A DNA stretch of 64,000 nt from Isoetes taiwanensis. Taxonomy: Eukaryota; Streptophyta; Lycopodiopsida; Isoetales; Isoetaceae. The stretch covers positions 1-64,000 of the forward strand of contig JAJEKV010000541.1 of the NCBI GenBank assembly GCA_021234155.1, read 5' to 3'. The notes below the pieces were generated by a model. The model saw only the letters and a list, made by a program, of their open reading frames with translations, had not been told where the DNA came from and ran no database searches. A program made the position numbers and the translations under genes. This document shows positions 2,526 to 64,000 of this stretch, in pieces; position 1 is the stretch's first letter; the number at the start of each line of letters is the position of its first letter.

Positions 2526-4800
2526 TGTTTTGAAATAGACCAAACCCTTCTCTAACTGGGCACGGCAGAGCTCTGCAATCTCTCAACCTCTTGCTGCAAG
2601 AACTTAAAAGAGTATAATATGGCCAGAAACAGAAATCAACTAAAAATGCATGGCTATCGCTTAGTCGTGCAGCTTTAGGTTTAATTTTGAGCCCTGTCCT
2701 GTACCCATTCAGAATTATCAGAGCAAGGAGGAGAAAAGGACCATGGCTGGGGCATATCTGGGGCCTCAGGCATAACATCAACTCAGGTATTCTTACTCTC
2801 AATCTTTTCTTTCTTTCAGTTTCTACTCAGGTTCATTCTCAAGGATCTACAAATTCTGGAGAGTTAGCCTTTAGCTTGATGCAAAGATGCAAAGAACAGT
2901 AAGATATCAATCTGGCTAGGCAACTGTAAATGCCTTTCTCTGTGTGCTTTTCTATAAATCTGTGCACTTTCTTATCACAAATATATATTTTGTTTGCCAT
3001 GTCAGTACGTGAATTTCCATTGCTCATCTTTTGTGGTTGAATTGTCACAGGTTGCAGCAGGTGTAAATGGCGGCGTTACAAATTTATTTTGTAAGCTTAA
3101 TCATTGAGTAGCCAAAAAAAATATAAGTTATGTTGGTTTGGCTATGCCGTTTTTTTGTTTATCACATTGTTTGTTTTGAAAGATTTTGACATTTTGTTCC
3201 CTTGCAGTAACCATTGCCATTTTCCTCAACTGGAAGTAACTCAAATAATGACATTAATGATTAATGCTGTAAGGTAAGATTCCATTTTGCTCCTTATTTG
3301 CTGATTGAGCTAAAACCATGTTGATCATTGCCATCTTATTCAAATCCATCATTTGTGATTGCAGCCTTCCCTATACATGCAGCACCATAGGCATTGATGT
3401 TCAAACTGAGGCCCAGAAGGAAGTCATAACATTTGGTTGTCTTGGCCAGTTATTTTGCTCGGAATTGCGTAAAGAACTAATGCAGCTCTTTAGATTCAGG
3501 TATGGTGTAATGTTGCTCTGGTTTAACCTTCAAAATGCATGCTGCTGTGCAAGCATTGGATATAATATTAAATTATAGTTGTTCTTAGCTCATAGGAGCA
3601 CCTTCAATAGTTAAAATACTCCATCTTAAGCATTTAATTTAAGTTTCATGGGAATTCAAGATAAAGGTGTTCATGGGATCCTACATTTTGACTGTCTTGT
3701 AGATGGATCATGTGGTTGCTTTGCAGCTAGACCTGAATTGGTACATGCGACTCTAAAAATTTAGTGAGTTTTCTTGCTGGCCTAAGTTGGAGTGATGGAA
3801 TCTGATCCTTTTGTTGAAATGATGGAATGTGCGTAACAAGTTATGTATGACATTTACAAAATGAAATCACTGGAAGCTCAATGGCTAGATCTAGGTGCAA
3901 ATGTCTTTCTTTAGTAATAGCCAGATTCTAGAAAAACCTGTACTCATGGCATGTACTTCTTTGCATTGGATCAATACAGATGAATGATGCCTAAGCGAGA
4001 GAGATGCCAGTGGATGCAGTGACAATAAGAAGCCTGAAAATATGTTCATGCTGGTTCAAAGGCTCCGCAACAGTATGTCACGAGCTGCCTAAGATAAATA
4101 GATCAAAGAATGGTTGGCAGATTTGCGAGCTTTGCAATTGTATGTCCTTGACAAGGGTGGGCAGACTGCAAAAATAGCGAGAGCCTGGTCATGGAATTTG
4201 TTCAAACAACATGAATCTATTTTTAAGTAAAGACAGTATTTTGCCACAAAGAATGATAAATTAATTTACTATTTTTTTTTTCCATAGTCCCACTTAGTGC
4301 AGAAAGAAACGTATCTATCTAGACTTGCAAGATGTTGCTTGATAATAATGTATATCAATATTCATGTTAGATCTTTCTTCGTTGATAAATTGTTAGTCTA
4401 TAGGAGTAAAATGAAAGAAAGGACCTACATTATTTGCAAGGTGTAATTGACAATTTTGGATAAGCAAGTCGGCATTCAACGATTTATTAAATGTGTGATG
4501 TGGCATGAATGTATTGCCATTGATATGATTTGATGTCTTTGCCATGAATGGACATCAATGCTATTCTTAATCATCAAATAGAAGACAATATTTTGGAATA
4601 AATTAGCCCATGAAATAGCAAACAATATTTTGACAATCCAACTTATTTTAACAATCCAGCTTATGCCCAACAATAGTTTGGTCTTCTATTGAGATTTGAA
4701 TTACTTCAGTTATCAAATGTCACCAGGTGCATTGGATGTTTCAAGTATACACAATGGATGCCACAAAATAGAGACATCTTTTATATTATAATGTTTTACG
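2526..4800. other. Unassigned stretch with one exon-like segment
   Basis: I recognise no gene here. The segment 3,363-3,499 looks exon-like: it follows a pyrimidine-containing ...TTGCAG, is open (IGIDVQTEAQKEVITFGC... in one frame) and is followed by GTATGG, a good donor. Another small candidate ends near 2,785 (CTCAGgtattc). The rest is AT-rich with no repeat that I can match elsewhere in the window. It could be the 3' part of a decayed gene or a non-coding transcript. Confidence 0.2.
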
Positions 4801-4806
4801 TTGTGT

Positions 4807-4892
4807 CTTCAGTCGCGGCCGAGATCAGACGATACAGATAGTTTGACATCTTCAATCGTGGCCAAAATCAGACGATACAGATAGTTTGACAT
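4807..4892 (+). repeat. Tandem duplication of a 43-bp unit
   Basis: Two adjacent 43-bp copies (4,807-4,849 and 4,850-4,892) share AATCAGACGATACAGATAG-type sequence and differ at only about four positions. They sit just upstream of the coding-like locus that begins at 4,996. Confidence 0.85.
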
Positions 4893-4995
4893 AGATCTGA
4901 GGGGTGAAATGTCACTTTTTAATAGTTAATCCTAGCTTGCCCCAAAATCTTGGAGGCATTGCCTAATAATTCGGCTTCCATACCTCGGGTCTTGA

Positions 4996-5577
4996 TTGGA
5001 ATCAATAAGCTTGCTAAAGAAAAGGCCCACATCCAGAAATATCTTAGTACTGCCAATGAAGAAGATGTCTTTAACATTACAAGGCCATGTGCCAGTATGT
5101 CCTAATTGGTCCCTTAACAATAAGAAACCATTCAAGGGCATGCATGATCAAAACATTTTCAGGCTCCCAACTTATGCCCAGCAACGCTGGGCATCATTAC
5201 TAGTTGGATCTAACGACTATATTCATCAGTATCTGCGAAATGTTAGTGGGATCCGCAATGCCCTTTCGCCCGAAAAGTTCGCCAGGCATATTGCATCACA
5301 ACTTCTGGAGCAAGTGGAGGTGGAAATCAGAGGGAAAACAACGAGTGCACTCCTACCTAGCACCTCTACAGTAGCACCAGTCGGACAAGAAAGAGGGGGT
5401 ATCAACTTGACCTCTTCCAGGTCCATGTTCGGTGACTACCGAGAGATGATAGCGGTACCGGTGGACGAGTACTCCGGAAGACACAGGCTGCAATCAGAAC
5501 CGGAGAAGAGGCAGGGGAGGCAGGGCACGACAAAGCCCTCAGGTTTTATTTACCACTGTTCACCGATGGAAGAATAG
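4996..5577 (+). CDS. Unrecognised 193-codon open frame, first part of a two-frame locus
   Basis: This is the longest clean frame in the first 30 kb. It encodes a basic N-terminus, then a mixed soluble sequence (for example LTLQGHVPVCPNW near residue 27 and HIASQLLEQVEVEIRGK near residue 95) and a Gly/Ser/Arg-rich C-terminus. I see no signal peptide, membrane segment or family motif. Composition is protein-like and less AT-rich than the flanking DNA. Another frame opens at 5,436 and runs on to 5,927, so the two may once have been a single reading frame broken by a frameshift. A viral or transposon origin is possible but I could not match it to a family. Confidence 0.35.
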   Translation: MESISLLKKRPTSRNILVLPMKKMSLTLQGHVPVCPNWSLNNKKPFKGMHDQNIFRLPTYAQQRWASLLVGSNDYIHQYLRNVSGIRNALSPEKFARHIASQLLEQVEVEIRGKTTSALLPSTSTVAPVGQERGGINLTSSRSMFGDYREMIAVPVDEYSGRHRLQSEPEKRQGRQGTTKPSGFIYHCSPMEE

Positions 5578-45200: not shown

Positions 45201-45690
45201 GTTTGTCTATGTTTAAGAGGGTACGTCCTGGGCTGGGAATGCGGTATTGATCAGATGGATAGTCCATGGATGAGGTTGCTATGGAGGGACGTTTTCTGAG
45301 GCCCTGATGAAGTTGGAGTAGAAGACATAGGAGCGGCCTATGGGGCTAGTGGAAGTTATTGGAGTACCAAGAATTTGACGAGCAACAAGATTGCGTATTA
45401 AACGGGAGCAAATCATCGAAACGAGAGCAAAAGGAATATTCCTTAAACATTCCCCTTTTTTACAGAAAAGGGGGTAAAACGAGGTAAAAAAAAGAAAAAG
45501 ATGCATGAAATTCTATTTTGACTCCTCCCAAACGACTAGTTTTTTGGTGCAACGAAAGAATTGACTTTTTTAAAGTGACACTTTTCTTAGCAAATGCAAT
45601 GTTCTTGAAGTATGTTTTAAGAGAGAAACTCTAATTTCAGAGGATAAAATATTTAACAAAAAATTGAAGTAAAGTCTGTAACTGAAACTG
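45201..45690. other. Unassigned
   Basis: One minus-strand frame (45,279-45,506) includes VARQILGTPITSTSPIG but has no recognisable domain. The rest is AT-rich. Confidence 0.3.
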
Positions 45691-45698
45691 TAGTATTC

Positions 45699-46640
45699 TC
45701 AAAATTTGAAGATAAAATCTTCATATTCACATGCAAAATTTACAGTTTTTTTTCTAAGACTCAGTGATGTACAAAAGTGTGAGGAGTGATGGAGGAAGAC
45801 ATCATCATATTCATTTATGCCTTCCTCATCACCTTCACTTTTTTCAGTGTCACTCGAGGAAGTGCTTGAGTTGTCTTCCTCATCACTATCAACAGATGAT
45901 GAAGCATTGCCACCACCACTCCCTTCTTCATCCTCTTCCTCGTAATTACAAGCCTTTTTAAGTAAATTGATAGTCCTCTGGCGTAGACGATTGTTAGATT
46001 TCAATTTAAAATCATAGCACAATATAGTCACGTCATTAAAGTTCAACTCATCCCTACAATCCACTTTCTTGAACTTTCTTCCTTTTCCTTGGCTTCTCAT
46101 TTCTAACTCATATCTACCTTCTGAGCGTGTTGCAAGCCGATGAATCTTGAGTTTAGTGACTAAGCCTTCCTCCTTGACTGTATCAAGTACTTTTGCTATC
46201 CAGAAAGGTCGACCTTTGTCATCCTCCTCAGTTGGAAGAGCAATCAGCATACCTTTAACAATTTCTGTGATATTACCTTGAGGCTCATTCCTGCGTCTTG
46301 GTCCGAGGTACATGACTCGATCCTCGTCTTCTTCTACTGCAGGTGCTAATGTAGCATTGCTTGGACCTGCTTGGTGCTGGGGTTGATGGAAGGTGTTAGG
46401 TCATTGAAATGGTTCTTGCAACTATCTTAGAGCTATATTTTGTACAACAATTTTCTGTTCGAGAAAGAAATTACTCTACCACATCCGATCTTCTTCTAAG
46501 AAGTACTTAAAACCCGAGGAAATTCTATTTTCAATGGCTTTTAAGGATGACACTGGGGTACTTTTCTTCTGCTTCGACTCCTTAGGATTTTTGAGAGGAA
46601 GTTGCTTTCGTACGTTCTATGAAGCAAGTGTCGGAATATA
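45699..46640 (-). pseudogene. C-terminal part of a DUF7869-like protein, with stops
   Basis: The 204-codon frame 46,313-45,699 reads IVKGMLIALPTEEDDKGRP, FWIAKVLDTVKEEG, then KLKIHRLATRSEGRYELE, FNDVTILCYDFKLKSNNRL and RQRTINLLKKAC, followed by an acidic Ser/Glu tail. The WIAKVLD...KIHRL...ILCYDF pattern suggests a small beta-barrel (chromo- or Tudor-like). The frame can be followed upstream to about 46,620 (KAIENRISSGFKYFLEEDR) through a few in-frame stops. I infer that it is the C-terminal portion of the minus-strand DUF7869-type pseudogene whose centre lies at 61.1-62.6 kb, separated by the 46.66-61.04 kb block. The two halves share no overlap, so this is not proven. Confidence 0.5.
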
Positions 46641-46699
46641 TTTAAGAAAGCGTAATCCTGCACAGTGCGGGGATAGGTTCTATCACGTACAAAATTAAA

Positions 46700-47060
46700 A
46701 TTCTGGCGTATAAAGTCAAAAAACGTATTTTTTAATAAAATCGTATTTAGCGTATAAAAAACCCCGCCGTAGGAAAAAATTTTGGCGTCTAGCGAAAGCT
46801 TTTAAAAGCGTCTGTGAAAAAACTTCAGCGTCGAAATCTAATTCTCGCCGCCAAAAGTCTGGTCGACTTTTCGTGCAGACGAAAACCGGTTCAGCGTCTG
46901 CGAAAGTGTTTCCTGCACGCTTTCGAAACTATTTGGCGTCGCAGCGAAAAAAGGCGATGTTAGCGTCTGTTGCTTTTTTCCACGTTTCGGCGTCTGCGAA
47001 ATTTTTTTATATATTCGCGGCGCGCGGATTCAGTTTTTGCGCCGCAAACAAGGTATTTCC
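46700..47060 (+). repeat. GCGTCTGCGAAA-rich block, left
   Basis: Variants of GGCGTCT(n)GCGAAA occur about seven times in 250 bp (for example TTTTGGCGTCTAGCGAAAGC and CAGCGTCTGCGAAAG). The composition is CpG-rich in otherwise AT-rich DNA. A counterpart is at 60,540-60,960. Confidence 0.75.
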
Positions 47061-47244
47061 TGCGCCCAACCTTGCAATTTGCCACCCAAAACCTTTTTTT
47101 TTTGTTTTCTTAGTTTTTAGGGTTTTTGTTGTTTTTTTTGATAGGTAGGCCAGGTTAGGTCATGATTAGGCCCTCGCTTTTTGCCCCCACAATGTAAGGC
47201 GTAACGATGGTGAGTGCCTTGATTACGTGGCTGAGCAGCCTATT

Positions 47245-47335
47245 TTAAAAAAAAAAATAATAATAATAATTTAAGCAAATAATAATTTAAGAGTAAAGTA
47301 AAAAAAAAAAAAAAAAAAAAAGAAAAGAAATTGGT
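47245..47335 (+). repeat. A-rich low-complexity tract
   Basis: Poly(A), (TAA)n and a second poly(A) of about 22 bases. It may be a retrotransposon tail, but no element body is recognisable to its left. Confidence 0.6.
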
Positions 47336-47770
47336 TGCCTTCCTTAAACAACAACCGAGAGGGCTTTTTAGGGTTGCGTGTTGCCAAAACATAGGCATGC
47401 CCTTGCACGGTATTGCCGCATTTATTTGCGCCATATGCCGAGGGTGGGTGTAAACTTGGGTCTAAGTTAGATATTGGGGTACAAAAAGCGCGACAAGCGA
47501 GCGGAGAAAGCCGCATAAAACACGAACATAGCGTATCTCGGCTTCCGCATGCCTCTAAAACTATCCTTCTCCTACCAAATTTATAATTTGTTCATACTTA
47601 TTTGAAGGTACCAAATGTCATATTGGGAAATTTTGCTCATTGCGCTTCTCGGTTTGTATTTGTGTTTTCAGCGGTGTTTGATGCCGTTAATCTCAGTCGA
47701 GTTCTTTTTACTGCGGATGACTAATAACTTTTGTATTGGGTTTCCAAATGGCGTTGAAAAAGTTATTAAA

Positions 47771-47948
47771 AGAGCCCCATGTTACTTGGTTATTTGTCAA
47801 GTAAACTTTGTATTGAGATTCATCGTCAAATATTTGTTGCATTCTTTTTTGCACATCGAAAGAGCTCCATATTTCTTGTTATTTGTCAAGTAACCTTGTG
47901 TTGAGTTTCATCGTCAAAAGGCCATTGCTTTCTTTTTGCACATAGACA
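47771..47948 (+). repeat. Tandem duplication of about 90 bp
   Basis: Copies at 47,771-47,860 and 47,861-47,948 share AGAGCnCCAT, TTATTTGTCAAGTAA and CATCGTCAAA, with about 80 percent identity. An unassigned stretch follows. Confidence 0.8.
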
Positions 47949-47949
47949 A

Positions 47950-50900
47950 AATCTATCGTAATTTGGTGGAACTTCGGATCGAATCCTCTAAATAGCAACA
48001 TTATTTTCTCGTTGGTTTGGAATTGCTCTATTTTCATCTATAGTTCTATAATTTGAAGGCGGTCATCTTGCGGATCGGAAGATTCTTGATCCTACGGCAT
48101 GGGTCGTTTGCATGATTTGCACCTTGTAGTACAATTCAGACAATCCTGATGATTTGCATGATCTAATGCCTTCGAGACGTGAGTCAAGGATTGTAAAGCA
48201 AGATCAATATGAGCGAATAAATCCACGAGCCCTCTAAGTCAAACAAATATTGGTAAAGAATGGTAGTTAATGGATCGACATTGCCAAGTTGAGATTAGAT
48301 GTTTATATTCTTATCTCCAAACGACTAATTTATTAAGTATACCCAGCATCTTAGTGTGGTGTGATACAATGTTTCACATATGAAACATATGTATTTCCAC
48401 AAAAATGTCGTTGTAGGTTTCATGCCATATCCCTTGTTGAAACTCTTGCTAATTTGCATATCATATCTCATGCCAAACACGGTTGTAAATTCTTGAGTGT
48501 TGTGTTTCACCAAGCTTGGAAAAGAAATCATCGTTTCCATTTAACCAAAGCTCAAGAATAGTCTCAATTTGGTTGTTTGCGGATCCATAAGTTGCCATCT
48601 TATATACCAAATTGGAGTGCTTAAATTCCAATCCTTTCACATTTGCTTCTAGTATGCGATAAATTCTAGAAAAAGCTGGCTATACTAACGGTTCCATTCA
48701 GCAATAGCTTGATTTGTGCAGAAATTTGTTAATGCCAACACAAAGGCTGCCGAAATGGGATCATGTATTTCAAGGCATATTTTCATGAAGAAGCACATTA
48801 CGATTGTAACATCTATTTTTGAGTGCGATAAGAATACCAACAAACAAATCCTTGGCTATTTATCTCGGTGATAAATGCACCAAATTAGATCAGTATTCCA
48901 AGGCATATTTTCATGGAGAAGCACACTACCATGTAACATCTATGCCTATGCAATAGAATACCTACATAGAGTTGGCCTATTAGCTAAATTTACTTTCGAT
49001 ATGATATCTACAAGTCTATGAGCATTTGCCATTGCTAGAATGCATGAAATATAAAAGGCAAGCCGGTGAAAAGGCCTCTCATAATCTTCTCCATATTATC
49101 AATTGTGCACATTTCCTTGCCACGGGCATGCTTATACAATGCTTCCTATTCCAATCCTTTTCTATTCCTCCTCCATGTCATACGCCATGTGTTCTTTCAA
49201 TATGCAATGAGTTCTATCTTATACGAGAAGTTGTACTCTAGCAGCAAATTTTACATGTCTCTTTAAATCTTGTTTACTGTGTAGAGGACCACACATCTCT
49301 TTAAATGTTGTTACGCTCTAGAGAACCGGATGATATAGCAATTCTCCATCGTCATCAACCTCCATGCGTCACCAACCTCCATGCGTCATCAACAAATCTT
49401 CCGGTCTTTGGGAGTATCATATAACTTCTTTTCAATAATTATTTGGAACTTCTCATCTTGATTCACGACTGTTTTCACAAGATATAAGATGTGAAGATAA
49501 TTGTATAATATCCAAAGGAATATAAATACGGGATGTCTACTTGGAATACTTGAGACCACAATCCCTGAATTTGCTTTCGAGTTACGTAAGTGAGAGACCT
49601 TCAATCCTGGTTGCTTTCGACCTATAATTATAAGCATGATATTGCACAGGTAGCATCATGCCTATAGATGACGAAAAATTAGCTAAACCAAATATTACTT
49701 GCATGAATGTGCTGAAAATGGTGTCATTGCCCCAAGAAGATACAATGTGCGAGTATAAAACAAATTTTCCATTTCATTCAAAGATATACACTAAGCGGGG
49801 AGAGTTGTATCTTTGCCGAAGTTGTATCTTGCCAAAATGCCATACATATTCTGAGACATTAATGCTTGTAAGTCGGCCAAGCTAACTTACAATGTGCCTT
49901 TAGATGCCTCGTAGAGTTTTTCAAATTTCTTAATAAAGTGTTCTGTAAAGAATAGAAACGGTAAAGGGATCATCATTGCTGCATCAAGCCTACGGACTAT
50001 AATTTTCTAATTGTTGATCAAAATGTACAAGCAAAACATTCCTCACTTTTTGGCCAAGATCGGAAAACTTGGGACATAATCTCAAAGCGACTTACATTTT
50101 AAAGCGGTTGGAACCAATGTCCGTTATTGACTCTATCATTACCACGCCAACACAATCTTATCATATCAATCATCGTTGCTTTCAGCCTATAATTGAAAGC
50201 ATGACATTGTCGAGTCCATGATTGCCTAGATGGGCTAGGCATAAAGATTTTAAATGCCAAGCTATATGCATGCATGTAATCCCAGTTATATGACTTGATT
50301 GAAATGCCGCTATAGATGTGACATAACAACCTAGCTAAGAGTGAAGGCATTTACGGATCTTTTTAACTTTGGCAAATCGCCACTAAGTTACTATATACGA
50401 GGAAACATACCTATAGAAAACATACGAGAATTCTTTAGAACAATTCTATCGCTCATCGAGGTAGAACAATGAAATTGAAAATTGCATCACCACGGTTTCA
50501 AAAAGTGTTGGGTGGGCACACAAGAAACCAAACCTATCCTTCACAATTTGCCGGAAAACACACTTTGTCGAAGCCTTCATTATATGATATAAACATGAAA
50601 AGCTTTTTCCGCATCATGGCTCAATTGCATTATCGGATAGGTAGTGCCCACAAGTTCACACGCCGATCTTTCCACATACAAGACTCTTATATCGATTGAA
50701 GGCCTTCTACTTCCTCTGCGCAACAAGATTTCTCTGACCCATAATGCTCGGCATATATGAATATGCATATAAAGCCTTCTGTTGGAGAATAAGATACACT
50801 TGTAGGAGCTCCACTACGACTTCATGACACATGCATCTTTGGCTAGTGACCTGCTAACTTTCTACCATACTTACGGATCTGCGGCATTGATTGTACCTTA

Positions 50901-51300
50901 ATGCAAGAAGCTCTAGCGGCGAGCTTCTACAAAGAAGAAATACATGGGCGATGGTGGAAAGCCGGAATAAACTACCTAATGGAGTCCTACCACTACTTAC
51001 ATCCCACTACGCAAGTACGTGGTCAATGGGGGATATTGTAGGATCTCCGGTGCTTGCAAACCTAAATGCATTGAGGTATCATTGTTCTTTATCCATTGAT
51101 CAATTCTCTCACCAAATGCTTCATCAACAAGCATTCTGGAGATACTCCATGAGGCATTCATCCGCCATGGCGGGATCAAGAAAATCCTCTGCGCACTTAA
51201 AAATCAGCCCGCAAATTATCTCTGAGCCATTTACTGCTGAATTTGAAATTACGGATGTCCATGTCATCGATCCGGCACCAATTTGCTAAGAGCAAAATGG
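47950..51300. other. Unassigned; interior of the candidate insertion
   Basis: Only short frames on both strands. A GGCATATTTTCATG segment recurs at 48,773 and 48,905 within imperfect copies of about 130 bp. The plus frame 50,891-51,289 (132 codons) is the longest but shows no motif; its minus-strand shadow is equally open. I cannot assign a family. Confidence 0.25.
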
Positions 51301-54300
51301 TTTTCCTTTCGAAAGCACCCAAAGCGGATCCGGCTTTAAAAGCGAGGCGTCGGGACCAGTGCTTTTGTACTAATATCTAACCCAGCCCCCCTTTGCTGAA
51401 GCTTAAGGCAACTAGGGTCTCCCTTTAGTAAGAGTATAACCCTCGCTGACGCCGTTGTTGGCCTTGGTCAGGTGTCGAAAGGTGTCGCGTTATTACTTTT
51501 ATTAAAAGTTAGGAGAATGTTTTATCAATTCACACCCTAGTTCTGATGGTGTTGTTGATGAAAGTCCGAAGCACTAATATAGGCTGGCGTATGTTTTGAT
51601 AAGCATTCGATTGGTCTCGTCTTTGAAAAAAAGCGTGACCTAGGACAAGTGCAATGCATTTAAAACTTGCTAGCCTTGCATTTTGGAAGTGATTTGGGCT
51701 ATAGATCATAAATCGTGTTTTGGTCCTTTTATTTGTTACCCTATCCTTGGCCTTGCACATACATACTCATGTTAGGGTCTTAGTGTAGGAAGCATAAAAA
51801 TTAGTGTTTTGTTTTGGTTAAAGTGAGTTGATTTACCCTCATGTGCTAAGCACTAAATTGAAAGTTTTATCTTTGCTTGACTTGTAGGTGTTCTTGTTGT
51901 CGGGTTCGTATTATCAGCGAATTAAGCATTTTGCTAGCCTGCTAGACAATCCCTTAAAACAAGTATGACTTGAGGAAGAGAGGCGGAAGTTAACTTGCAA
52001 CCAAATGTGGCATTAGTGTCTCAGAGGAGAGCCGCAACCAGTTAGAGCATTGGCGTCTCAAACCCTGAACTCTGAGCCGCAGCACAGGTCATCTTACTGC
52101 ACGCCAGCAAAAAAAAAGTAGACCACAACAAGCATGGTCTACTTTGAGACCCAATTTCATGGTATTTGGATTTTAGCGTGTCGGTTTGTGCAATGCCTGG
52201 CTCAGGATTTGGAATTGATTACTAGCGTTGAGGAAGGATGGCTAGACTACCATGCGGGGCTAAAAGATGCCGAGAGGGCTTTTAAGCAGAATGATGGAGC
52301 TAGAGCCTGAAAAGAGTGAGCAAGAGAGGTATACATGGATGGTGGGTAATATTAAGCACTACGGCAATATGATCACAGAAGTTGCAAATTTGAGTAGTCA
52401 TCGGCAGGGAGGCTAGAGTTGAAAGAAAAAGCCCAGCACATGGAATGCTTGGCGTGGACCAAATGAAAATTGAAGAAAGAGGCCCATCAACCCCATCTTG
52501 TTAAGAAAGTGTTGGCGCCAAACCATAAAAGCCAAGCGTCCTGGTGAAGACAGATAGGGAATTAGGGAGGCTAAATGAAAAAGCAGATGCCAAGACTACT
52601 TGGTTTGCCATGGTAGATTCATCACAAATAATAAGCGGGACATGAATTGGTTCTCGTTCATATGGCGCAGGTGTATAAGTGCAATATTTTAGGGTCTAGT
52701 TTTATTAAGGATGAACCTTATTGTAAAACTTCAACATAATAATTTTCAGCATAGTACGTAACCCAATAAGTTAGTGGGAAGCTATCTTTGAAGAACATGA
52801 GGGAGTCGGGAATGCAAGTTAGGCGCGGGTGTATAATGTGCATTGGTAGCTGTGGCCTAGAAAGACAAGGCTTAATTTTCCCTTTTGGAATGGAGGTTCG
52901 TTGGCAACCTTCTTTTACAAGTCATGGGTCCAATGCCTTTGCGAGCTTGCATTTAAGTTGGGAGCTGTCCCCAGAGTTGGGGCGGACTTGAGGCGCTTGA
53001 GGCCTTGAGAAAGAAAAAATTATTTGTTGCCTCTAGGGTTGGGGACTTAGCAATGTCATTCTGTGGCAGACTCAAAGCTCCATCAAGAAAGATATTTGCA
53101 TATGGACTTGCATCGGGCAATATATTGCTCCATTTTGATTATGGAAAGGAGAAGGGATGTATTAATCCTCATTTTGTATACATTGGCATTTGTGATTAGG
53201 GTGAATCCAGGTTGATCCACCGAGGCAAGGTGGAGGTAAAGCGATGGCATTACAAGGGTATGGATGGCGAAGGTAAGAAAAGAATTGAGATGGAAAGGGC
53301 CGGGCATCCATATATGCATGATGATCTTTTTTGGTAGTGGCTGAAGCCCGGATTACGCAAGGGTTGACTTTTGATTTACGGAACTGGCGTGCATTGTCTA
53401 CTACTTAGTACGACTTTGCTGGTAAGCACTCCTACATGGGTCAATAGAACTTGGGGAGCAGCAAGGCAAGCATGAGGGAATGCGACTATTTGAAACATTA
53501 CGTTGAGTGCTTGATGAGGACAAAAACGAAAATTTGATATGGCCCGGCTTCTTGACACAATTTGGGCCAGTTCATTGCTCTCAATTCCGTGCGGGGCCAC
53601 AATTGGAATCAATTGGATTCTTCAACTTGGCGGGTGGCGGCGATGCATTAGACCAAGCTGGTCTAGTCCATGGCGTGCATATTCCTTACATTCAAACATC
53701 CTTGTATTACATAATATTCCAACTAAATTCATTAAACACTTGCTCGATGCTACATGAATTGTTGTCTATGTGTGTTGTGTAGCTTAGTTTTTTCCTTTTA
53801 GATGTATTTTTTTTTTGTTATTTATTCTATGCTTTTTATATGTATGCTCTTGAACATTATAAAGACAAACAAAGTCAAAACACACCTATACAAGTCGGTC
53901 CGATTGCACCTATAGAAATTAGGTGAGTCAAATTATGTCCCACGAACAAGGCGAAAGTGAATCTGACACAGCGGAATGTGGGTCATTCGAGCGGCGGGAT
54001 CAGCATGGATTTTTGGTTCCCTCTAATTTGAGGACCCCCTCTACTCGATCTCCCTTGGCATGAAGGGTTGGAAGCGAGCTTGAGATGTCATTTTGCTTTC
54101 GGCAAATGGAAGGCGGCGGCACATGCAAGAGGCGAATGAGTTTCGCTGCAGCCCGAGTTAAGAAGGTTCGCGTCGCGATGGATGAAGTTTCAAGAGGATA
54201 ATTGCACCATCACGGAGGTGCATAATGTAGTGGCGAAGCGAGGGGCAGCTATTGTCAAGTGGAGGCCGGACTAGCGATGTAATCACAAATTTGGACAAGA

Positions 54301-55450
54301 ATGAGTTTGAAAGTGGAGTGGCCTAGTAGGCCAGAGTGCAGTATGAGCTCTCCACGAGGTGCAAGAATCGCGTGGATTTGAGCAAAAAGCTTTCGGCGTC
54401 ATGTCGAAGGGACATTTACCCCTAGCAGTGAGTTTGAAGTAAGAGTTTTGCTGCGGCAAGTATACCTCTGTGAGCTTGTAGAAGGTAAAAAATGATGAAT
54501 TATGGAGTAGGAAATGGAGGCAAGAGGCGGTAGTGGCATACGAGGGTCAGAAGCTAGCCGGAGGAGATGGCGAGAGAGTGTAGACCACATGGTGAGCCCA
54601 TCACCATTACATGCAACTTATTTAGCGGCGGCTATCCAGCACCTGGAGTGTGAGGGGTAGCGGCCAGGCAGGCGTGAACCGGCCTTGTGGACCGGGCCCA
54701 ACTAGAGAATGAGAGAAGTGAACGCGACGCTGGGAGGAATATTGCGGCAGAAGGGTAGTGCCGATGGGTATGATAAGATGGCCCTTGAATTAGAGGGCGG
54801 CTAAAAAGCGGCAACTAAGCGGCATTAAGCAGGAAGTACGCGGTCCTTAGAAAACAAGACACTTTGCTTGATTTGACCGTCGTTAGACTCGACCCTTTTA
54901 GGGTGACTTGAACGGATGATATCCTATCTCCCTCGCAGTATTTGTATGAGTCAGTGGGAAGAGCTAAAGGATTTGTTGATTCGGACATTGCCAATTTTGT
55001 GGTGACAACGACACGCAAGTGTTTGAGTACACTCTAGAATTGTGGCATCATTATTATGCACATCACGATGTGTTCTTGATTGGATGTTACCAAAGCGCTT
55101 CTGTCCAACCTTGCAAGGCGGATGGATTTTTCCTGAGTTACAATATGCCATGGCCCCCAATATGCAAGGTGGCATACCCGGTGTTACCACATTTGACCCT
55201 TCGCGCGGAGGAGGGATGATCACACTTTCCAAACCTTTCGCCCGAGATGGAATTGTGGAGGGTGGAGGGGCAGCGTGAAGGAGAGCCGGTGCGGACATTA
55301 ACAGTTCTTACCACCACCTCGGGCCAGGGGTGATTATATTGATCAAATGACCAATGAAAATGAGATATTACATTTTTTAGACATGCCAAATTTTGACTGT
55401 ATCATTTTGTGAATGGCGGGTATAATGGCGTTATTTCAAACAAGGTGTAA
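51301..55450. other. Unassigned; interior of the candidate insertion
   Basis: GC content rises and short plus-strand frames become frequent (for example 53,507-53,782 and 54,996-55,278), but none carries a motif I know. One perfect hairpin lies at 52,115-52,145. It looks like decayed coding sequence of an element. Confidence 0.25.
52115..52145. repeat. Perfect 11-bp hairpin
   Basis: AAAGTAGACCA and TGGTCTACTTT are separated by 9 bases. The left arm is preceded by a run of A. Confidence 0.85.
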
Positions 55451-55459
55451 TGATGTTAT

Positions 55460-57310
55460 CAAAGGATGAGTAGTGCTCATAGTAAAGCATCGAGACTTCC
55501 AAATCGCTCTTTAGTTTTCTGTTTGTGAGAGTAAAGGCATTGAGACTTCCCAATCTCTTTTATCTGGCTTAGTCTCTTTTGTTTGTCTAGTGGTCACCTG
55601 GCTCACCCACAGTGAGTCTCCTTAGTTTTACGTTTATCGTATCAATTTGCCCCCTAGGATGACGCCGGCTCACTTCGGTGGCGAATTAGATCGTTCTGCG
55701 AAAACTTCGAAAAGGAGTAAGCCAAGGCGCGACTCCTCTTGGATGGTCATGGTTGGATGGTGAGTGGTCAAAACATACGCACCGCATAACCCTCTTGAAT
55801 GGTTGTTGAGGGTCACCGGGCCTTATATTCTGATGGCAAACAATATAGACTTCTCGAAATTCTTGTTACCTCCTTTAGAAGGGCGAGCTTTGCTCTCACT
55901 CTCTTTACGTGTCTACGTGTCCAATGTATCTTAGATACTTTGCTAGGTTATATTACACAAAGGCCAAAATGAAAATGGGAACGAAATCGTTGGTTCTAGA
56001 GGGAGGTTACAGAATTTTAGTACTCTATTTTATTGTGGCGGGGATATAAGGCCTAGTGGTTGCTAACGATTACAATGTGTTCATTAGATGTTAGTGATTG
56101 AAGCAAGCTTTGACTCACGAATTCAAGCATCGAAGCTTCCACGGTTTTTCTTTCCCAGGCTCTTTGGGCAATGTAGCTTAGTTTACATGCTAGTTCCATT
56201 GTCCAAGGAGCTCTAAGGCCAAGGGCGTCTCGATGCACAGACCAGTCTCGGTCGAGGAGGTGAGGCGCACTCTAATTTCAAGCCAAAGTGGTGCACGGCG
56301 TTGTCCATCTATCTACGGTGGCTGTTAGGCACCAAATCATGGAACACATGGAGAACCTTGACATCACTATATGACTTGAAATTGGATGCGTCCGTTATTT
56401 GGATGCCATTTGGATGCCATCTGGATAATTTGTACCTCCATTCCTTTGGGTGGCACATGCCATACAAACCCATTTGGGTATTCGTGCATGTGCCACCGGA
56501 GAATAAATAGCAATTATAGATGCGGATCTGGATAACATTCAAAGCATAATGGAAGTATCTTTAACTTCGCTCACCCTGGCTTAGTCTCTTTACGTTTTTT
56601 TTTGTGTATCTAATTTTGCCCCTAGGATGACGCCGGCTCCATTCGGTGGCGATTAGATCCAGCGGGGAAACTTCGAAAAGGAGTAAGCCAAGCGCAACCC
56701 TCTTGAATGGTTGTCGGGTCACCGGGCTTTATATTCCATGGCAAACCAATATAGACTTAAATGTAGAAGGAGCTTGCGATTACGTGGGTTCATTAGATGT
56801 TGATTGATTGATGAGTTCAAGCATCGAGACTTCCCAATCTTTCTTTCCCCTCCTCTTTGGGCAATGTAGCTTGGTTTACATGCTAAGTTCCATTGTTCAA
56901 GGAGTTAACAGAGGTTAGGAAGTCTCGATATTCTCGATCTCTTTCATCATTTTGGGCGTGATCGCCGGGTTAGTGGATGTTAGTGATTGATGAGTTCAAG
57001 CAGCCGAGACTTCCCAATCTTTCTTTCCCCCTCTTTGGGCAATGTAGCTTAGTTTACATGCTTAAGTTCCATTGTTCAAGGGAAGTGCTGGGTTTGGGAA
57101 GTCTCGATCTCTTCTTCAGTCTCTTCATCGGCACAGGGGCGTGATCCTCTTGAATGGTTGCCAAATCGCCATTTTGGATGCCATCACGGACCTAATTTGT
57201 ACCTCCATTCCTTTGGGTGGTACATGCCATGCAAACCCATTTTGGGTATTGAGCATGTGCCACCCGATAAGAATGCAATTATAGAGTCGAATAAGCAAAA
57301 ACCTTAATTC
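55460..57310 (+). repeat. Higher-order direct repeats
   Basis: Several modules recur in shuffled order. GATGACGCCGGCTC...AAGGAGTAAGCCAAG occurs at about 55,659 and 56,625. GGGTCACCGGGC...AATATAGACTT occurs at about 55,810 and 56,715. TTTGGGCAATGTAGCTT with GTTCCATTGTtCAAGG occurs at about 56,160, 56,865 and 57,040. TTTGTACCTCCATTCCTTTG with its hairpin occurs at about 56,430 and 57,195. Identity is roughly 85-95 percent. This is a mosaic tandem array, about 0.9 kb per period. Confidence 0.8.
56449..56497. repeat. Hairpin, 12-bp stem (second copy at 57,216-57,264)
   Basis: GGTGGCACATGC and GCATGTGCCACC are separated by 25 bases. The second copy has one mismatch (GGTGGTACATGC) and keeps the right arm. 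The structure is part of the duplicated module. Confidence 0.85.
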
Positions 57311-57689
57311 ATGCGAAGTTATTCCGACTTGTAGAAATTGCACCTTGTGAGACAACCGATGGATCGGAGTTAATTAAGACTGGTAGAGAACATTTGGCCC
57401 CCCAGCATCATTGGATTACTTCTCATCGGCAAGATTAGTGGCGTGCGAAGAGGCAAGCAACAACGAGGAGGTCGAGGCGATTCTGATCCAGCGAAGGTTT
57501 TCGAAGTTACTGGCGGTTACATGAAAGAAACATAGAAGAAACATAGAAAGAACTATCATACATTACTTAGTAAACGCTGGATAAAAATTATAACCAAAAA
57601 CTTCTTTTTTATTAATATGAGTGCGAGGGGCCGGTTACAATAGTATGAAAATCCTCAAGACCCAATTATGGGCCCAGAAGATACTCATA

Positions 57690-60013
57690 TCACAGCATCA
57701 TTTTTTCTAACTGCTTCATGAGTTTCATCGACACGGTTCCATCCTCTTTAACTATACTTTGGGAACCTAGAGTTTCAGCCTCCGATGACCCTTTCCTTTG
57801 GTGACGTCCTCGAGACGTGTTTTTCCTAGCCGTTCTCGTGTCAAGGTAAAAGCAAAGGTCCGGGTTGGATCCACGTAAGCGATCCGTCATCAAGGCGCAT
57901 TCTCGAACACGGCCTTTGCGTATGGAACTCCTCGGTATCCTCATTTTGTCGGCTGATCCAGATGCGAGGTATGGCTTGGTCTATATCATCTTAGCATCAG
58001 CGAAGTGGAGTGCGGTCAGATGTCTTCATCCAGCATAGCTTGCGGCATTTGTGCAGCATCTCGTCCCTCAACTTTGTCTTGATTTGTCCTCTTCCACGCC
58101 GGAATGCATCCATGAAGGCGTAGCTTATGGATTCGCGGATGTACCGCTGATACGATTCAATAGCGCTGATTTGAGAGTTTGTATACAAGTTTATGCCGCC
58201 TTCTTATGTAGCAAGCGATTCTGCGGGTGACATGTATGTGCTTATAAACTCCAGTTTCTCTCACGCTTGCCACTGTGGAAGACACCAAGAGGATAGTCAT
58301 TGCAACTACTTGCAAAGGTATGTATTAACTTGCCCATGGAAGGCACCACCATGCATATGATTCCATATTTGGTTTCGCTTCTTATGACTCTCCGGTCGCG
58401 TGGCGACTCTTCATCGCCCACCTTCCACCGAGTGCGGGTATTGATTAACTTCGGCAATGAAAACACCAGTCAGAACATTTGGGATGGTACATTTTGCAAC
58501 CTTCTTCCTTGAGCCCATCGCTAGCACATCACGTATGCTGGTCATATACCATTGGTTGTGTGTGGGTTCTACCAAAGGCATGGCGCCATGAGGAATCAGC
58601 TGTATGACTTCTTCATACGTTCGTAGAGTCTAGGTAGTCTTTGCTTGGCGGCTTAGCATTGTGTCAAGTAATGACATTGGGACCATCACGTTCTAGGAAA
58701 GGTTGGGCCAGATTACCAGCACCTCGATTTTCGATTGCGCAGCCAGAGAATCCATAGGGTTTGATGGCATGACAAGCGGTTGCATGCACCTCACAACTTA
58801 TTTTACACCTTTCCAAAATGTCTCATGACATTTCGAAGGGCAATGACTTCTTTGGCGTCGGTGGCGGCATTTTACTGCCTTCTTTCCCAATCAAAAACTA
58901 CGTATGATTAAGGTTGAGATAATCCAATCGACACTTCAACACTCTTTCAAGGCGGATATAATTGGAACCAAACGGTTGCCGGATTCATAGTGCTAGGCTC
59001 CCGGCGCAATGACTTGTAAATGGCATAAATTACGGCTTCTTTGTGATGAATTTTACAATGGCTGTGGCGCTTTTACGGAATGGGATCTTTGAACCCCGTG
59101 TCTTTGTGAAACGGTCCTTCAGCAATAGGTTTGAGGCAATAGCATTGGCAACTAGTATAAAAACCACAAATTACGGCCTCCGGTAATTGACCCGCTAGAA
59201 AAAGCACAGGCGAGCGTTATCCATTACAACTTGAAATATTCTCTTGATTCAAAACTCTATCCGGCCTTTGTTTCTGAAAAATCCAATCTCCGGTCCTTTG
59301 GTCAGTTTGGTTTCTACGGTTTTCAAAATACTTCACCTGGATACGATCTGGAAATTAATAAGATGGTCCCATTTTACATTGCTCAACCATCGGGTCACTA
59401 TTAAGTAGCGGCGGTCACCGCGTACAACTTCATCTCCACCCTCCTCAACCATTTTTCCATGTATTTCATCAACCATCTTATTGTTGGCATGCTTGTATAG
59501 GCCAATAAAAGCCGGTCTGGCACGGCAGCGCTTCTTGGAAGCTTCTTTCATTTGCTTTATGCTCGAATATGTGAAACTGACCCGGCATATAAAATGCCTC
59601 TACAACCTTGATTGTGTCTTCTTCAATGCTCTGATGTTAAGCGTGATCAACCCCTCTGTTGGCAAATACGTCTTTCCACTATTTCAATTGTCTCATATCA
59701 TTCTGTTCTCAGGTAAGCTTACCTATTGACCCTAATTCAGTCGCCCTCGATGGTGGTATGCTGTCCCAGCTGGTGGTATGGTTATCTTAAATACATACGC
59801 TGGCCTGCTCTTGGTATTCGTACAACTTCGTCTTTTTCTCATATTATTCTTACGTTTCGTATCCCATTCGAGACAATCTCGTAGCATCCTTTCCGCCGTC
59901 GTGAGATCACGATTACAAGTTCGCGACAGAAGCGTCGTTCCGTAAGATGTGAGCTCGAATTCTTGTTGCAAAACCATTTTACAGATGTGTATCCACAAAA
60001 CACACATTCCCAC
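57690..60013 (-). pseudogene. Decayed minus-strand coding region, unrecognised
   Basis: Successive minus-strand frames read as protein. From 5' to 3': RDLTTAERMLRDCLEWDT (near 59,900), then RARPAFIGLYKHANNKMVDE and DRRYLIVTRWLSNVKWDH (59,500-59,360), GKLIHTFASSCNDYPLGVF (58,320), YIRESISYAFMDAFRRGRG (58,130) and a basic C-terminus ending near 57,690. Frames are separated by stops. The composition is charged and soluble. It lies just inside the right GCGTCTGCGAAA block, so it may be the protein of the candidate 14-kb element. I cannot identify the family. Confidence 0.4.
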
Positions 60014-60539
60014 TCATTTGCTTAAAACTCTTTCACAAACTCCATTACGGGCCTCTTTTCGACCACATAACTCGGTTACCCGCGACCATGTGCAGAGTTC
60101 GGTCCGGAAATCGGACACGCCACGGGCTGCGCGTCTCGCACCTCTAGAGGTAGATGCATGACGACCACCTCCGGTGGATGCATGACCATAGCCACCATTT
60201 ATAGGACGGTGACAATATCTCTCTTAATCGACTCCTTGATTACACGAACTAAGGAAGGCGTGCGCCTGCTACAGGGAGCAAGCTCCTGATGCATATATTT
60301 AAAACCGGCGTTCCGACATCTTGATCAAAGGGGTTAGGCAAGGACCCTACTGCGGATATTCTATAACAGGCGGTTGGCAAATTTGGAAACCAGCAGGACC
60401 CGGAGTAAACTCCGCGTTCCGATTATCCAACTTATCGGTGGCCCATTTCGAAAGCACGACACCTCAAAGGCAAGCCGTTTCCAGAAGTGTTATTTTGACT
60501 CAACTGGCGGTCAGCGTTGAGGTGAATTCTAGGGCTAAT

Positions 60540-60960
60540 CCGTTTTTTCGCCTTATATACTAATGCCAGTGCCGCAAAGCGAGGCCAAGCGATGGCGCCA
60601 AATATTTTTGCTTGGCAAATCGGGCAAAAACTGACTAGAAAATTTTGGCGTCTTGGCGAAAACAGCATATAAAACCGCGTCGCGAAAATATTTCAGCGTC
60701 TGAAGTCAATGTTTGGCGTCTTGGCGAAGTTCAAGTATTCGGCGTCTGCGAAAACTCTGCTTGCGTATGCGAAAAATTCTAGCGTGCGGTGAAATTACCG
60801 TTTTGATGCGAAAAATTAGTTCAGCGTCTGCGAAGCTGCTTAATCTTCGCGATGCTTAGCGAAATATTTTCAGCGTCACCCAGCGGTTTGTTCACTTTTC
60901 GTGCGAATTTTTACGGCCAGCGAGATTGTTTTCCTTGTAGGTATTTTTCGTTTTATCTGG
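60540..60960 (+). repeat. GCGTCTGCGAAA-rich block, right
   Basis: About eight variants of GGCGTCTnGGCGAAA and CAGCGTCTGCGAA in about 250 bp, plus a shared ACTTTTCGTGC element (60,894; 46,867 in the left block). Same orientation as the left block. CpG-rich. Confidence 0.75.
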
Positions 60961-61049
60961 CAAATTTATGCCGTGTCAATTTCAATTCATCGTATTCGGT
61001 ATAAAGCGTCGTGATATTGAACCTATCCGCTTTCTGGTAGGACTCCGGT

Positions 61050-62617
61050 CGCCGTTGTAGTATACTTCTTCCCTTATGAAGCATGTCCATCCTTCAAGTA
61101 GAACTTGATGTGATGTTGAAAGGTGCGAGATCATTCAACTTATTTCTACAACTTGTTCTCACAATACGGCGTTGAGAAAGGAAACAAACTCCACACAAAG
61201 AGTAAGCGGTCTCTTTAAAACTCGATCCTTTGGAGTGGGGAGTGTAAATCTTCAATAATTGAACTAAAGTAGGAAGAAAAAGCCTTCTTCCTTTTTAAAG
61301 TATACGAAGAAAATCTCTTGAACATTTGGTCAATCGATCATGAGTGTGGCCTACAAGTAAAAACGAGCTTCACTTTTCTAAAGATCCCTAGCTCCACTAA
61401 CATGGCATAGTAAGCAAAGAGTGTTTGATTCTTGTTCTCCCTTGTAGTATTGTCAAGTTGCAGGTAGAGCACTGGTGATAATTGCTCTTGCTCATACAGG
61501 ACCTTGTTAAGAATTGTAAGGTTCGGGTGTCACCATGCAAGTTTGGATACGTCAAAAATACTTTGCACTTTAGACTTCCTTTGAAGACCATAGCTCCTAC
61601 AAGGCGGACCTTAACAAAACATTCCTCTGGCACATCAGAAGGTGTTAAGGTCTGGTCTTACATGATAGGCCAAGTATGGTCTGCCAATGTCATTGAATTG
61701 TAGTTGTCTCTAATTGCTCGTAATTTAGACATGTTAAATTTGTTGATGCAACCCAATGAGCAGCATTTAGTTCTTAAAAGTCTTCTAATTTTGTGCTCGT
61801 CCATAAGGTTTCTTCTTCTTACAGAGGAGCATGCGCTCAAACCATAATCCACCTTGAATTTCTTGGTGGAGTGGCTAGAGAATGTGTAATCTCGTTGCAC
61901 CTCGTTGGTGTCTTCATCTTGAAGAGAGTTCTACTCACGCCCTAAGTGGTGTGCTTGTAGAGGAGAACAAACCACGTGAAAGTCGCAATGCGAATAAAGG
62001 CGGAGGTACATTGTTGAATGGAGATGGGCCACCATATCTTGTGCCGGCAAATGTTATTGCGGCTTCTTCACAAGGAGTTAGGATTCAACCATGTCTTTAG
62101 AGCCGGTGAAATTACGCAAACCCATGTGTGTCACCACGTTTTGTGAAGAGGAGTAGATCTTTGCAAGGTCGTCTTCATTTGTAGTGACGTCTTGGTGGGA
62201 GAAGCGATGGAGAATCTCCAGATCTTGGAGCGTCTTTGTATTCCTCGTTTGTGTAAGTAAAGAAGGAGAAACCTACAAATAGGCGAGGTAGTGCATTGCG
62301 AAAAATTTGCCGGTCGAGCCTCTGTAGTGTAGGGGATGGTACAAAAGGTGGTGGAAGATTGCTACGATTACCAAGTGTGAGGCTATGAAAGGAGGTAGCA
62401 GCCGGTTTCCTACTAGACTTGGAGAGGGTTGGAAAGGTGGTGGCAGTCTACTAGTTACTGGACTCGGAGTGTCTTCGAGAAGCAACAAAGACCTTGTCGA
62501 GGTAGAAGTTGAAGAAGCATCTGCTTTATGTGTTCCATCTGAAGTAGCGGTACTTGGGGAAACAAATGGTGGTGGAAGTTTGTTCACGAAGCGGTTAACC
62601 ATCTTAAAGAACTGCAA
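61050..62617 (-). pseudogene. DUF7869-like protein pseudogene, N-terminal and central part
   Basis: Read on the minus strand, the N-terminus (62,617-62,380) is a Pro/Ser-rich leader with LPPPF three times. Then 61,830-61,770 reads RTKCCSLGCINKFNMSKLRA, a Cys-rich block. About 61,475-61,370 reads YLQLDNTTRENKNQ and then AMLVELGIFRKVKL, and 61,361-61,330, in another frame, LLVGHTHD. LQLDN...ENKN followed by (L)VGHTHD is the signature I associate with DUF7869-type proteins, common in seed-free plants, some protists and animals, and often suspected to be transposase-related; their function is not established. At least three frameshifts and several stops break it, so it is a pseudogene. Coding similarity fades at 61,050, where the GCG-rich block begins. 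Confidence 0.75.
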
Positions 62618-62989
62618 AAAATTATGGACTTGTTAGTAACTCACAAGGCGGTTGGACTAATGATATACGAGAATACAAATGCTATTCCGGAATACTGTTT
62701 TGTGTACAACATTTTCCGTTTGTGTGCATGAATCCTATTCTAGAATACACTTGTCCAGACTGTCTGGACATGAAGTATTCCACTTTACATAGAAAAAGAC
62801 AACTGACAATAGCCTACCTTTAAAAAGGAAAATTGAGCGCCTCTGTTGCGTATTCCGCTTTTAGAGATTTAGTCGCCAACCCGAGCGCCTTCCAATCTAT
62901 ATTGATTTGCTGTATTCCATTTTACATAGCAAAAATTATGGACAGGTAAGCATGTAAAGCACATAGTACGTCTTTTATCCCCATGTTAG

Positions 62990-63370
62990 TTTAATTTTGT
63001 GGGCAAAGTGTATTCCGGAATACACTTTGCCTTCAGTCAGAAGGGCAAAGTGTATTCCGGAATACACTTTGCCTTCAGTCATAAGGGCAAAGTGTATTCC
63101 AGTGTATTCCGGAATACACTTTGCCCTAATACACTTTGCCCTTATGACTGAAGGCAAAGTGAGGTAAAGTGTATTCCGGAATACACTTTACCTCACTTTG
63201 CCTTCAGTCAAAAGAGCAAAGTGTATTCCAGAATACACTTTGCCCTTCAGGTCAAAGGCAAGTGTATTCCGGAATACACTTTGCCCTTCAGGTCAAAGGC
63301 AAGTGTATTCCGGAATACACTTTGCCCTTTTGACTGAAGGCAAAGTGTATTCCGGAATAAGAATCTTGGA
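62990..63370. repeat. Array of eight 30-bp palindromes
   Basis: GTGTATTCCGGAATACAC-centred palindromes (outer arms GGCAAA/TTTGCC) occur with centres near 63,016, 63,058, 63,110, 63,177, 63,230, 63,270, 63,311 and 63,353. Spacing is mostly 40-42 bp, 52-67 in the middle. Linkers are TTCAGTCAnAAGG or its inverse CCTTnTGACTGAA, so the whole array is itself folded: about 50-bp arms meet at 63,177/63,178. Single TATTCC half-sites also occur at 62,687-62,790 and 62,910. Confidence 0.95.
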
Positions 63371-63591
63371 TTTTTGGGAAATAATGCCCTTTTTTTTGTT
63401 GTTTTTAGCTTACGAAAACCACTTTTTAGTTAATTAAGAACATGAAAAAGCATGTTTGTGCGTCTATTTTCTAGCTGTTTTTTCTTCTTTTTGCTTGCAT
63501 TTAACACACAAATTTTCAATTCTTATTATGGAATACAGTTTTCATCCCTTTTCAACTCTTAACAGTGTTGTCTTAAACATTTCTGTGGCAG

Positions 63592-63745
63592 GCAAGAAGG
63601 AAGCAAGAGGGCACCAAAGAAAGTGCTGAAGATAGTCAAGCGGCCACATCCAATGAAGCGGGCCCGACACTGGGGCGAGCCTGCGATTTATGAAAATTTT
63701 CAAACGCAGATGGTTCGTAACCGGGTGCAGCGGCAAGTATAGCAC
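63592..63745 (+). other. Exon-like coding fragment at the right edge
   Basis: Follows a pyrimidine-containing TTCTGTGGCAG acceptor. The frame reads KKVLKIVKRPHPMKRARHW, then GEPAIYENFQTQMVRNRVQ before a stop at about 63,739. A further open frame in another phase runs to the window edge. No family recognised. Confidence 0.3.
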
Positions 63746-64000
63746 CGACATTTCTACACGCTTGCAAGAGCCCCACGGGAACAAACGATCACGCCGACTC
63801 GAGTTTGTCAACCTTGGGACAATAAAAATGTCTCCGAGATTGCCTGGACAAGGAGGTCAAGCTGGGAGGCTATCCTTCAAAACCTCCTGGGCTGCATTGT
63901 TGCGAGACCTTGCAAGCTTTAGAATTGGGTTGCAAACCACGGGCACTATACAAATACATTTCACATTACCGGAGCAAACGGCTTTGGCTACAATTAATAT

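Follow-up and report, generated by a model that had tools for sequence, protein, structure and literature searches.

A hAT-superfamily transposon interrupts a DUF7869 gene in the lycophyte Isoetes taiwanensis and belongs to a family with a protein-kinase gene in many of its longer members

The first 64,000 nucleotides of contig JAJEKV010000541.1 of Isoetes taiwanensis contain two minus-strand pieces of sequence resembling genes for DUF7869 proteins, separated by a block of more than 14 kb. This raises the question of whether the two pieces are halves of one gene and, if they are, what has come between them. A preliminary description of this stretch, referred to here as the window, had proposed a single split gene. 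The genome searched was the assembly of 1,658,258,908 bases in 1,110 contigs, in which the window is the start of contig C265; two long open rbcL frames in it mark it as that of a plant. It is confirmed that the two parts are one DUF7869 gene, and the block between them is a DNA transposon of the hAT superfamily, as identified by its transposase, its ends and its target duplication.

Both parts of the gene lie on the minus strand, near the positions first given for them. A DUF7869 protein encoded in contig C1033 aligns to both by tblastn, with residues 105–271 corresponding to window positions 61526–61029 and residues 271–353 to positions 46658–46404. The two parts abut, because the alignment of the C1033 protein continues at residue 271 with no gap or overlap. 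In DNA searches with each half of the gene, for which 40 candidates were scored per search, both halves match one repeat family, and among the matches listed they adjoin at nine loci. Eight of these nine host copies were read (L005–L012), and the junction is uninterrupted in every one. The uninterrupted site is similar to GGAGTCCACCAGAGGGATTACGC; in the window the left part ends near GGAGTCCTACCAGAAAGC and the right part restarts at AGGATTACGC. Since one protein covers both parts and eight copies read through the junction, the proposal of a single split gene is borne out. The intact C1033 frame matches PF25273 (DUF7869) in Pfam with an E value of 3.9e-51, and the two open reading frames (ORFs) of the window gene, tested singly, have no Pfam match. 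The C-terminus of the C946 copy aligns by tblastn to window positions 46511–45795 at 91%. Relative to the other copies the window gene has a separate internal deletion of approximately 0.6 kb at 61636/61637, and there are further smaller lesions.

The block spans 14.36 kb, or approximately 10.4 kb without a nested insertion of approximately 3.9 kb. With three more terminal bases included, it ends at approximately 46,668 and 61,031. In a search straddling the left junction, 23 of 41 rows among the matches listed start at query base 266–273, corresponding to window position 61028, the first base of GGATAGGTTC, or to a point no more than a few bases from it. The block had been described as bounded by inverted GGATAGGTTC sequences, and a search for further copies with those ends had been suggested as a check; related blocks with the same two ends are found in C1026 (~9.7 kb), C1051 (~6.9 kb) and C950 (~12.7 kb, itself nested). 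Exact matches in the genome number 478 for the 5' end (19 bases) and 351 for the 3' end (22 bases), compared with 0 and 0 for control patterns made by reversing the same ends. Among the first 100 5' ends listed, 39 have a 3' end on the same strand within 30 kb. These pairs are 0.52–0.81 kb in size in 26 cases, 5.3–10.7 kb in ten and 15–25 kb in three. The family thus combines long elements with numerous short ones, the latter of which look, by their size, non-autonomous.

Elements of the hAT superfamily (Ac, Tam3, hobo and their relatives) have a hAT-type transposase, short terminal inverted repeats beginning CAG, and an 8 bp target-site duplication. The elements of the block family are bounded by CAGGGATAGG ends, and the end pattern is CAGGGATAGGTTC...GAACCTATCCCTG. 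Pfam matches to DUF659 (PF04937) are present in C923 (1.1e-28) and C950 (6.4e-15). Flanking sequences were read for all ten end-paired elements of 5.3–10.7 kb and for ten of the 26 short pairs; CAGGGATAGGTTC is at both ends of these elements, the ends having served to select them. A perfect 8 bp duplication is present in 16 of the 20, with one mismatch in one further element, two in another, and no duplication in the remaining two, both of which are on C919, where one shares 6 bp. Perfect duplications seen by eye include those of C923 (TCACACAC), C1047 (GTATGGAC), C1051 (GCTTCATG) and the outer element of C950 (CAAGCAGC). An Rfam search across the window gave no match. The earlier suggestion that this is possibly an undescribed element is only partly retained. 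The transposase, ends and target duplication place it in a known superfamily, yet it also has a protein-kinase gene, which hAT elements are not known to carry as a rule. Beyond that description, the interrupted gene is itself part of another transposon, and the block carries a nested insertion of its own.

The kinase gene is convergent to the transposase. In C923 it is a 446-aa open frame inside an element with a perfect duplication, such copies having been picked for their kinase. The C923 kinase matches PK_Tyr_Ser-Thr (1.2e-11, 44.9 bits, cut-off 23.1) and Pkinase (5.5e-11, 42.8 bits, cut-off 31.7) in Pfam, and the C1047 kinase is under both cut-offs. Kinase motifs identified by eye are a glycine loop GSGSYG, a VK lysine, an HMDLHPGN catalytic loop, and DWG replacing DFG. 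A PDB search gave weak matches to CLK3 only (E ~0.008), and no relatives of the kinase were found in viral contigs. Downstream of the kinase is a coiled-coil-like region, judged by eye, with no Pfam match above the cut-off.

Protein searches of the genome produced 2,030 first-look candidates for the kinase, 133 of which were scored, and 1,456 for DUF659, of which 150 were scored. A scored DUF659 match is present within 30 kb of 46 of the 133 scored kinase matches, when 0.7 would be expected. The linked pairs are convergent in 41 cases and on the same strand in five, with none divergent. By hand count, 63 of the 133 kinase matches are free of internal stops. The ten end-paired elements of 5.3–10.7 kb provide a sample that is independent of the kinase; eight were scanned, and those in C390 and C908 (16.3 Mb) were assessed by position. 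Transposase was found in six of the eight, kinase in two (C404 and C907, ~10.65 kb each) and a 32-residue kinase remnant in one; the C390 and C908 elements hold both genes. Overall, the kinase region is present in four of these ten long elements and the transposase in eight. Across the C404 and C907 elements the transposase is followed by a stretch that holds none of these genes, then by the coiled-coil-like region and the kinase, both of which are on the opposite strand; the gene order of the window copy is the same. Many kinase copies are decayed, that of the window included.

Seven kinase ORFs from fetched copies, representing two lineages, were compared for their rates of non-synonymous (dN) and synonymous (dS) substitution, leaving out the broken C1026 and C950 genes. 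All ten between-lineage pairs have a dN of 0.25–0.32, which is inflated by non-homologous tails on some of the ORFs; dS is saturated in six and 2.6–2.9 in four, a level at which it is a rough estimate, and dN/dS in these four is 0.09–0.10. This pattern fits a kinase long retained in source elements whose copies decay, and the kinase probably belongs to the hAT element as a gene under selection. The copies in C1047 (L026) and C923 (L019) are mosaic with respect to one another, being approximately 89% identical in the transposase core and 66–70% in the kinase region (~69%) and its neighbours. Such a mosaic points to recombination between lineages of the element.

Other origins for the block have been considered. 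A chance pile of repeats between two diverged copies of the DUF7869 gene might account for the nested insertion and internal repeats that the block contains, but its flanks are joined in eight of eight copies, its two ends recur together in three copies, and sampled elements have 8 bp duplications. On this evidence a chance assembly is rejected as very improbable. The length and inverted ends would also suit a Maverick/Polinton or a similar large virus-like element, but this is the least credible of the alternatives and is rejected given the DUF659 transposase and the 8 bp duplications; no capsid or polymerase match was found in Pfam among the proteins scanned. Some observations do weigh against a hAT element with defined ends. 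When ten copies were scanned for the ends, the window included, both were found in only six, some with altered outer bases; C1007 and C920 have one end only, and C1097 and C33 have none. The match to Dimer_Tnp_hAT (PF05699) in C923 (6.2e-4, 19.9 bits) is below its Pfam cut-off of 21.4, and there is no BED match in the Pfam scans of the copy proteins, their N-terminus being BED-like by eye. The 8 bp duplication of the window copy itself is too decayed for a confident reading, and that of C1026 is imperfect.

The main rival concerns the kinase, which might be a passenger of no use to the element, related host kinase genes having been picked up repeatedly by the hAT family. Gene capture is well known in plant DNA transposons, for example in Pack-MULEs and gene-carrying CACTA elements, and the higher identity between C1047 and C923 in the transposase core than in the kinase region suggests that these modules differ in their history. 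No intact frame was seen in the four end-chosen elements that bear the kinase: stops interrupt those of C390 and C908, and in C404 and C907 every ORF is shorter than 230 aa. The selected role is further weakened by the six of ten end-chosen long elements without the kinase region (a 32-residue remnant persists in one of them) and the two of ten without transposase; by the 87 of 133 kinase matches that have no scored DUF659 match within 30 kb, with 150 of 1,456 DUF659 candidates scored; and by a within-lineage dN/dS of 0.34–0.56 (11 pairs). Repeated capture is nevertheless considered unlikely. The kinase has the same orientation, and the same position where this was read, in diverged lineages. 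The regions flanking its ORF align at a similar 66–70%, as if the whole unit were inherited, and between lineages dN/dS is close to 0.1 or dS is saturated.

The features of the window are listed in Table 1. The ends of the nested insertion are inversely alike by eye (GGG-CT--GTTAGATATT), it has an ORF of at most 132 aa, and sequence matching portions of it occurs elsewhere in the genome at 84–93% identity. It is apparently non-coding and a later arrival in the hAT copy. In C950 (L017/L018) one hAT copy apparently lies within another of the same family, the 5' and the 3' end each being present twice in nested arrangement. Two long end-paired elements without full 8 bp duplications, C919:1173709-1183046 and C919:1347102-1354971, have right-flank sequence in common, as if through duplication or recombination. 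The first of these holds ORFs of 303 aa and 691 aa with no match to the hAT genes. A mid-element stretch of approximately 177 bp (5081–5257 in the C1047 copy and 4761–4937 in the C1051 copy, also in C950 and C1026) is 97.7–99.4% identical between copies that are otherwise diverged.

Table 1. Features of the interrupted gene, the hAT copy and the host transposon in the window
Feature	Position	Strand	Evidence or remarks
3' terminal repeat of host transposon (CGCAATCTTGTT)	45384..45395	-	end common to host copies
C-terminal part of DUF7869 gene, past the insertion	45795..46658	-	tblastn, C1033 residues 271–353 at 46658–46404
hAT copy inside DUF7869 gene, including nested insertion	46671..61028	-	ends GGATAGGTTC...GAACCTATCC; empty site in 8/8 host copies
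Nested insertion (~3.9 kb) within hAT element, imperfect inverted ends	~47458..51391	.	absent at this point from C1026, C1051 and C950
Decayed protein-kinase gene, convergent to transposase	52362..53674	+	tblastn with C923 kinase, best E 2.9e-55
Remnant of coiled-coil-like region, downstream of kinase on same strand	54182..54719	+	tblastn with C1007 7168–7902
Decayed hAT transposase (DUF659 core, hAT C-terminal region)	58163..60364	-	tblastn, queried with parts of the transposase from other copies
Broken DUF7869 domain, as far as the insertion, with the deletion at 61636/61637	61029..61642	-	DNA searches, comparison with other copies, tblastn
N-terminal part of interrupted DUF7869 gene	61592..62632	-	tblastn with C1033 residues 1–361
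GTATTCCGGAATAC palindrome array between divergent DUF7869 and ParB-like genes	62682..63360	.	9 sites, one mismatch allowed
ParB-like gene of host transposon, decayed; extends to ~contig position 64,768	63563..64000	+	tblastn with C946 ORF

The DUF7869 gene sits in units of approximately 7.9 kb in C974 and 8.1 kb in C946. The 5' ends of these units are AACATGATTGC (C974) and AGCATGATTGT (C946), the 3' end is CGCAATCTTGTT, and they are flanked by 4 bp duplications (CACT and TGTT, respectively), in a small sample in which 5' ends were read in two copies. The host unit of approximately 8 kb has AACA(A/T)GATTG-like ends, and the window copy runs from 45384 past 64000. In its other half, divergent from the DUF7869 gene, are a ParB-like ORF and a DNA methylase (N6_N4_Mtase, 6e-17). 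The ParB-like ORF was so called by eye, and its best Pfam match, DUF6551, is under the cut-off (0.012). In genome searches 150 of 9,908 first-look candidates were scored for DUF7869 and 150 of 1,444 for the methylase. A scored methylase match is present within 30 kb of 24 of the 150 scored DUF7869 matches (expected 0.8); 22 of these pairs are divergent, and in 17 of the 24 the genes are 4.9–6.2 kb apart. Palindromes of the GTATTCCGGAATAC type are present in all nine host copies examined, with two to 14 per copy when one mismatch is allowed. In all seven copies with both genes placed, they occupy the interval separating the divergent pair, and C974 and C946 have an additional array in the ParB-methylase half. 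By analogy, the array is like an operator or a parS-type site.

The DUF7869 protein is conserved, to judge from its substitution rates: dS is saturated with dN at 0.16–0.33 in eight of ten pairs, and two closer pairs have dN/dS of 0.09 and 0.18. An alignment of four proteins has invariant acids in VVIDGMD, LQLDN and GHTHDQID. The pattern of these acids resembles an RNase H-type active site; no solved structure matched, with a PDB profile search giving three matches, all unrelated and the best at E 0.2. Relatives of DUF7869 sought in viral contigs were not found. DUF7869 has no assigned function in Pfam and is unnamed in the literature searched (open papers). The host unit is a separate and abundant DNA transposon, with DUF7869 as its likely transposase.

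Taken as a whole, it is highly probable that a hAT-superfamily transposon of approximately 10.4 kb, from a family with kinase-bearing longer members, entered and split the DUF7869 gene carried by a second DNA transposon, and that a third element of approximately 3.9 kb, apparently non-coding, then inserted into the hAT copy. For the chemistry of transposition, gene expression and the target of the kinase, we infer the following. The hAT element would move by cut and paste, its DUF659-type transposase recognising the CAGGGATAGGTTC ends and excising the element, which would then insert at an 8 bp staggered cut. One such insertion would have disabled a DUF7869 transposon. Intact source elements would make the kinase, to the benefit of the element. 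It is tentatively suggested, with the balance of probability against it, that the kinase phosphorylates the transposase, or a host factor controlling transposition or silencing. A broader proposal, somewhat less doubtful than this but still speculative, is that the host units form an undescribed and very abundant lycophyte transposon superfamily, with a DUF7869 transposase, duplicated 4 bp targets, and a bacterial-type ParB-like/N6-N4 DNA methyltransferase that marks or segregates the element's own DNA at the palindromes, broken here by a hAT that keeps a kinase to control transposition.

The conservation of DUF7869, and its place as the putative enzyme of a mobile element with defined boundaries, invite the direct hypothesis that it is a transposase. 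The DUF7869/methyltransferase unit would also supply a plant genome with DNA methyltransferases of bacterial type. Likewise, a hAT lineage that has long kept a protein kinase would be a rare cut-and-paste element with a signalling enzyme, and it would make testable the question of whether transposons use phosphorylation to regulate their own movement. In the literature searched (open papers, by the titles and the starts of abstracts listed, with Repbase outside its scope), no hAT with a kinase and no DUF7869 transposon is described.

The block family is like other members of the hAT superfamily in its DUF659 transposase and weak hAT dimerisation match, its CAGGG ends and 8 bp duplications, its GCGTCTGCGAAA-type repeats close to both ends (three copies), and its short members of 0.5–0.8 kb. 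The lineage differs from ordinary hATs in its length, approximately 10 kb, and in the convergent protein-kinase gene of many of its longer members. As in Pack-MULEs and gene-carrying CACTA elements, a DNA transposon bears a gene that is unnecessary for catalysis. In contrast to the sporadic fragments of those elements, the kinase of the block family is recurrent, in one orientation, and has a low dN/dS between lineages. The host transposon is comparable to the KDZ elements, which are DNA transposons with their own DNA-modification genes (TET/JBP), in that a putative transposase is paired with a DNA-modifying enzyme. It differs from them in having DUF7869, a ParB-like ORF and an N6/N4 methyltransferase, together with 4 bp duplications and a palindrome array.

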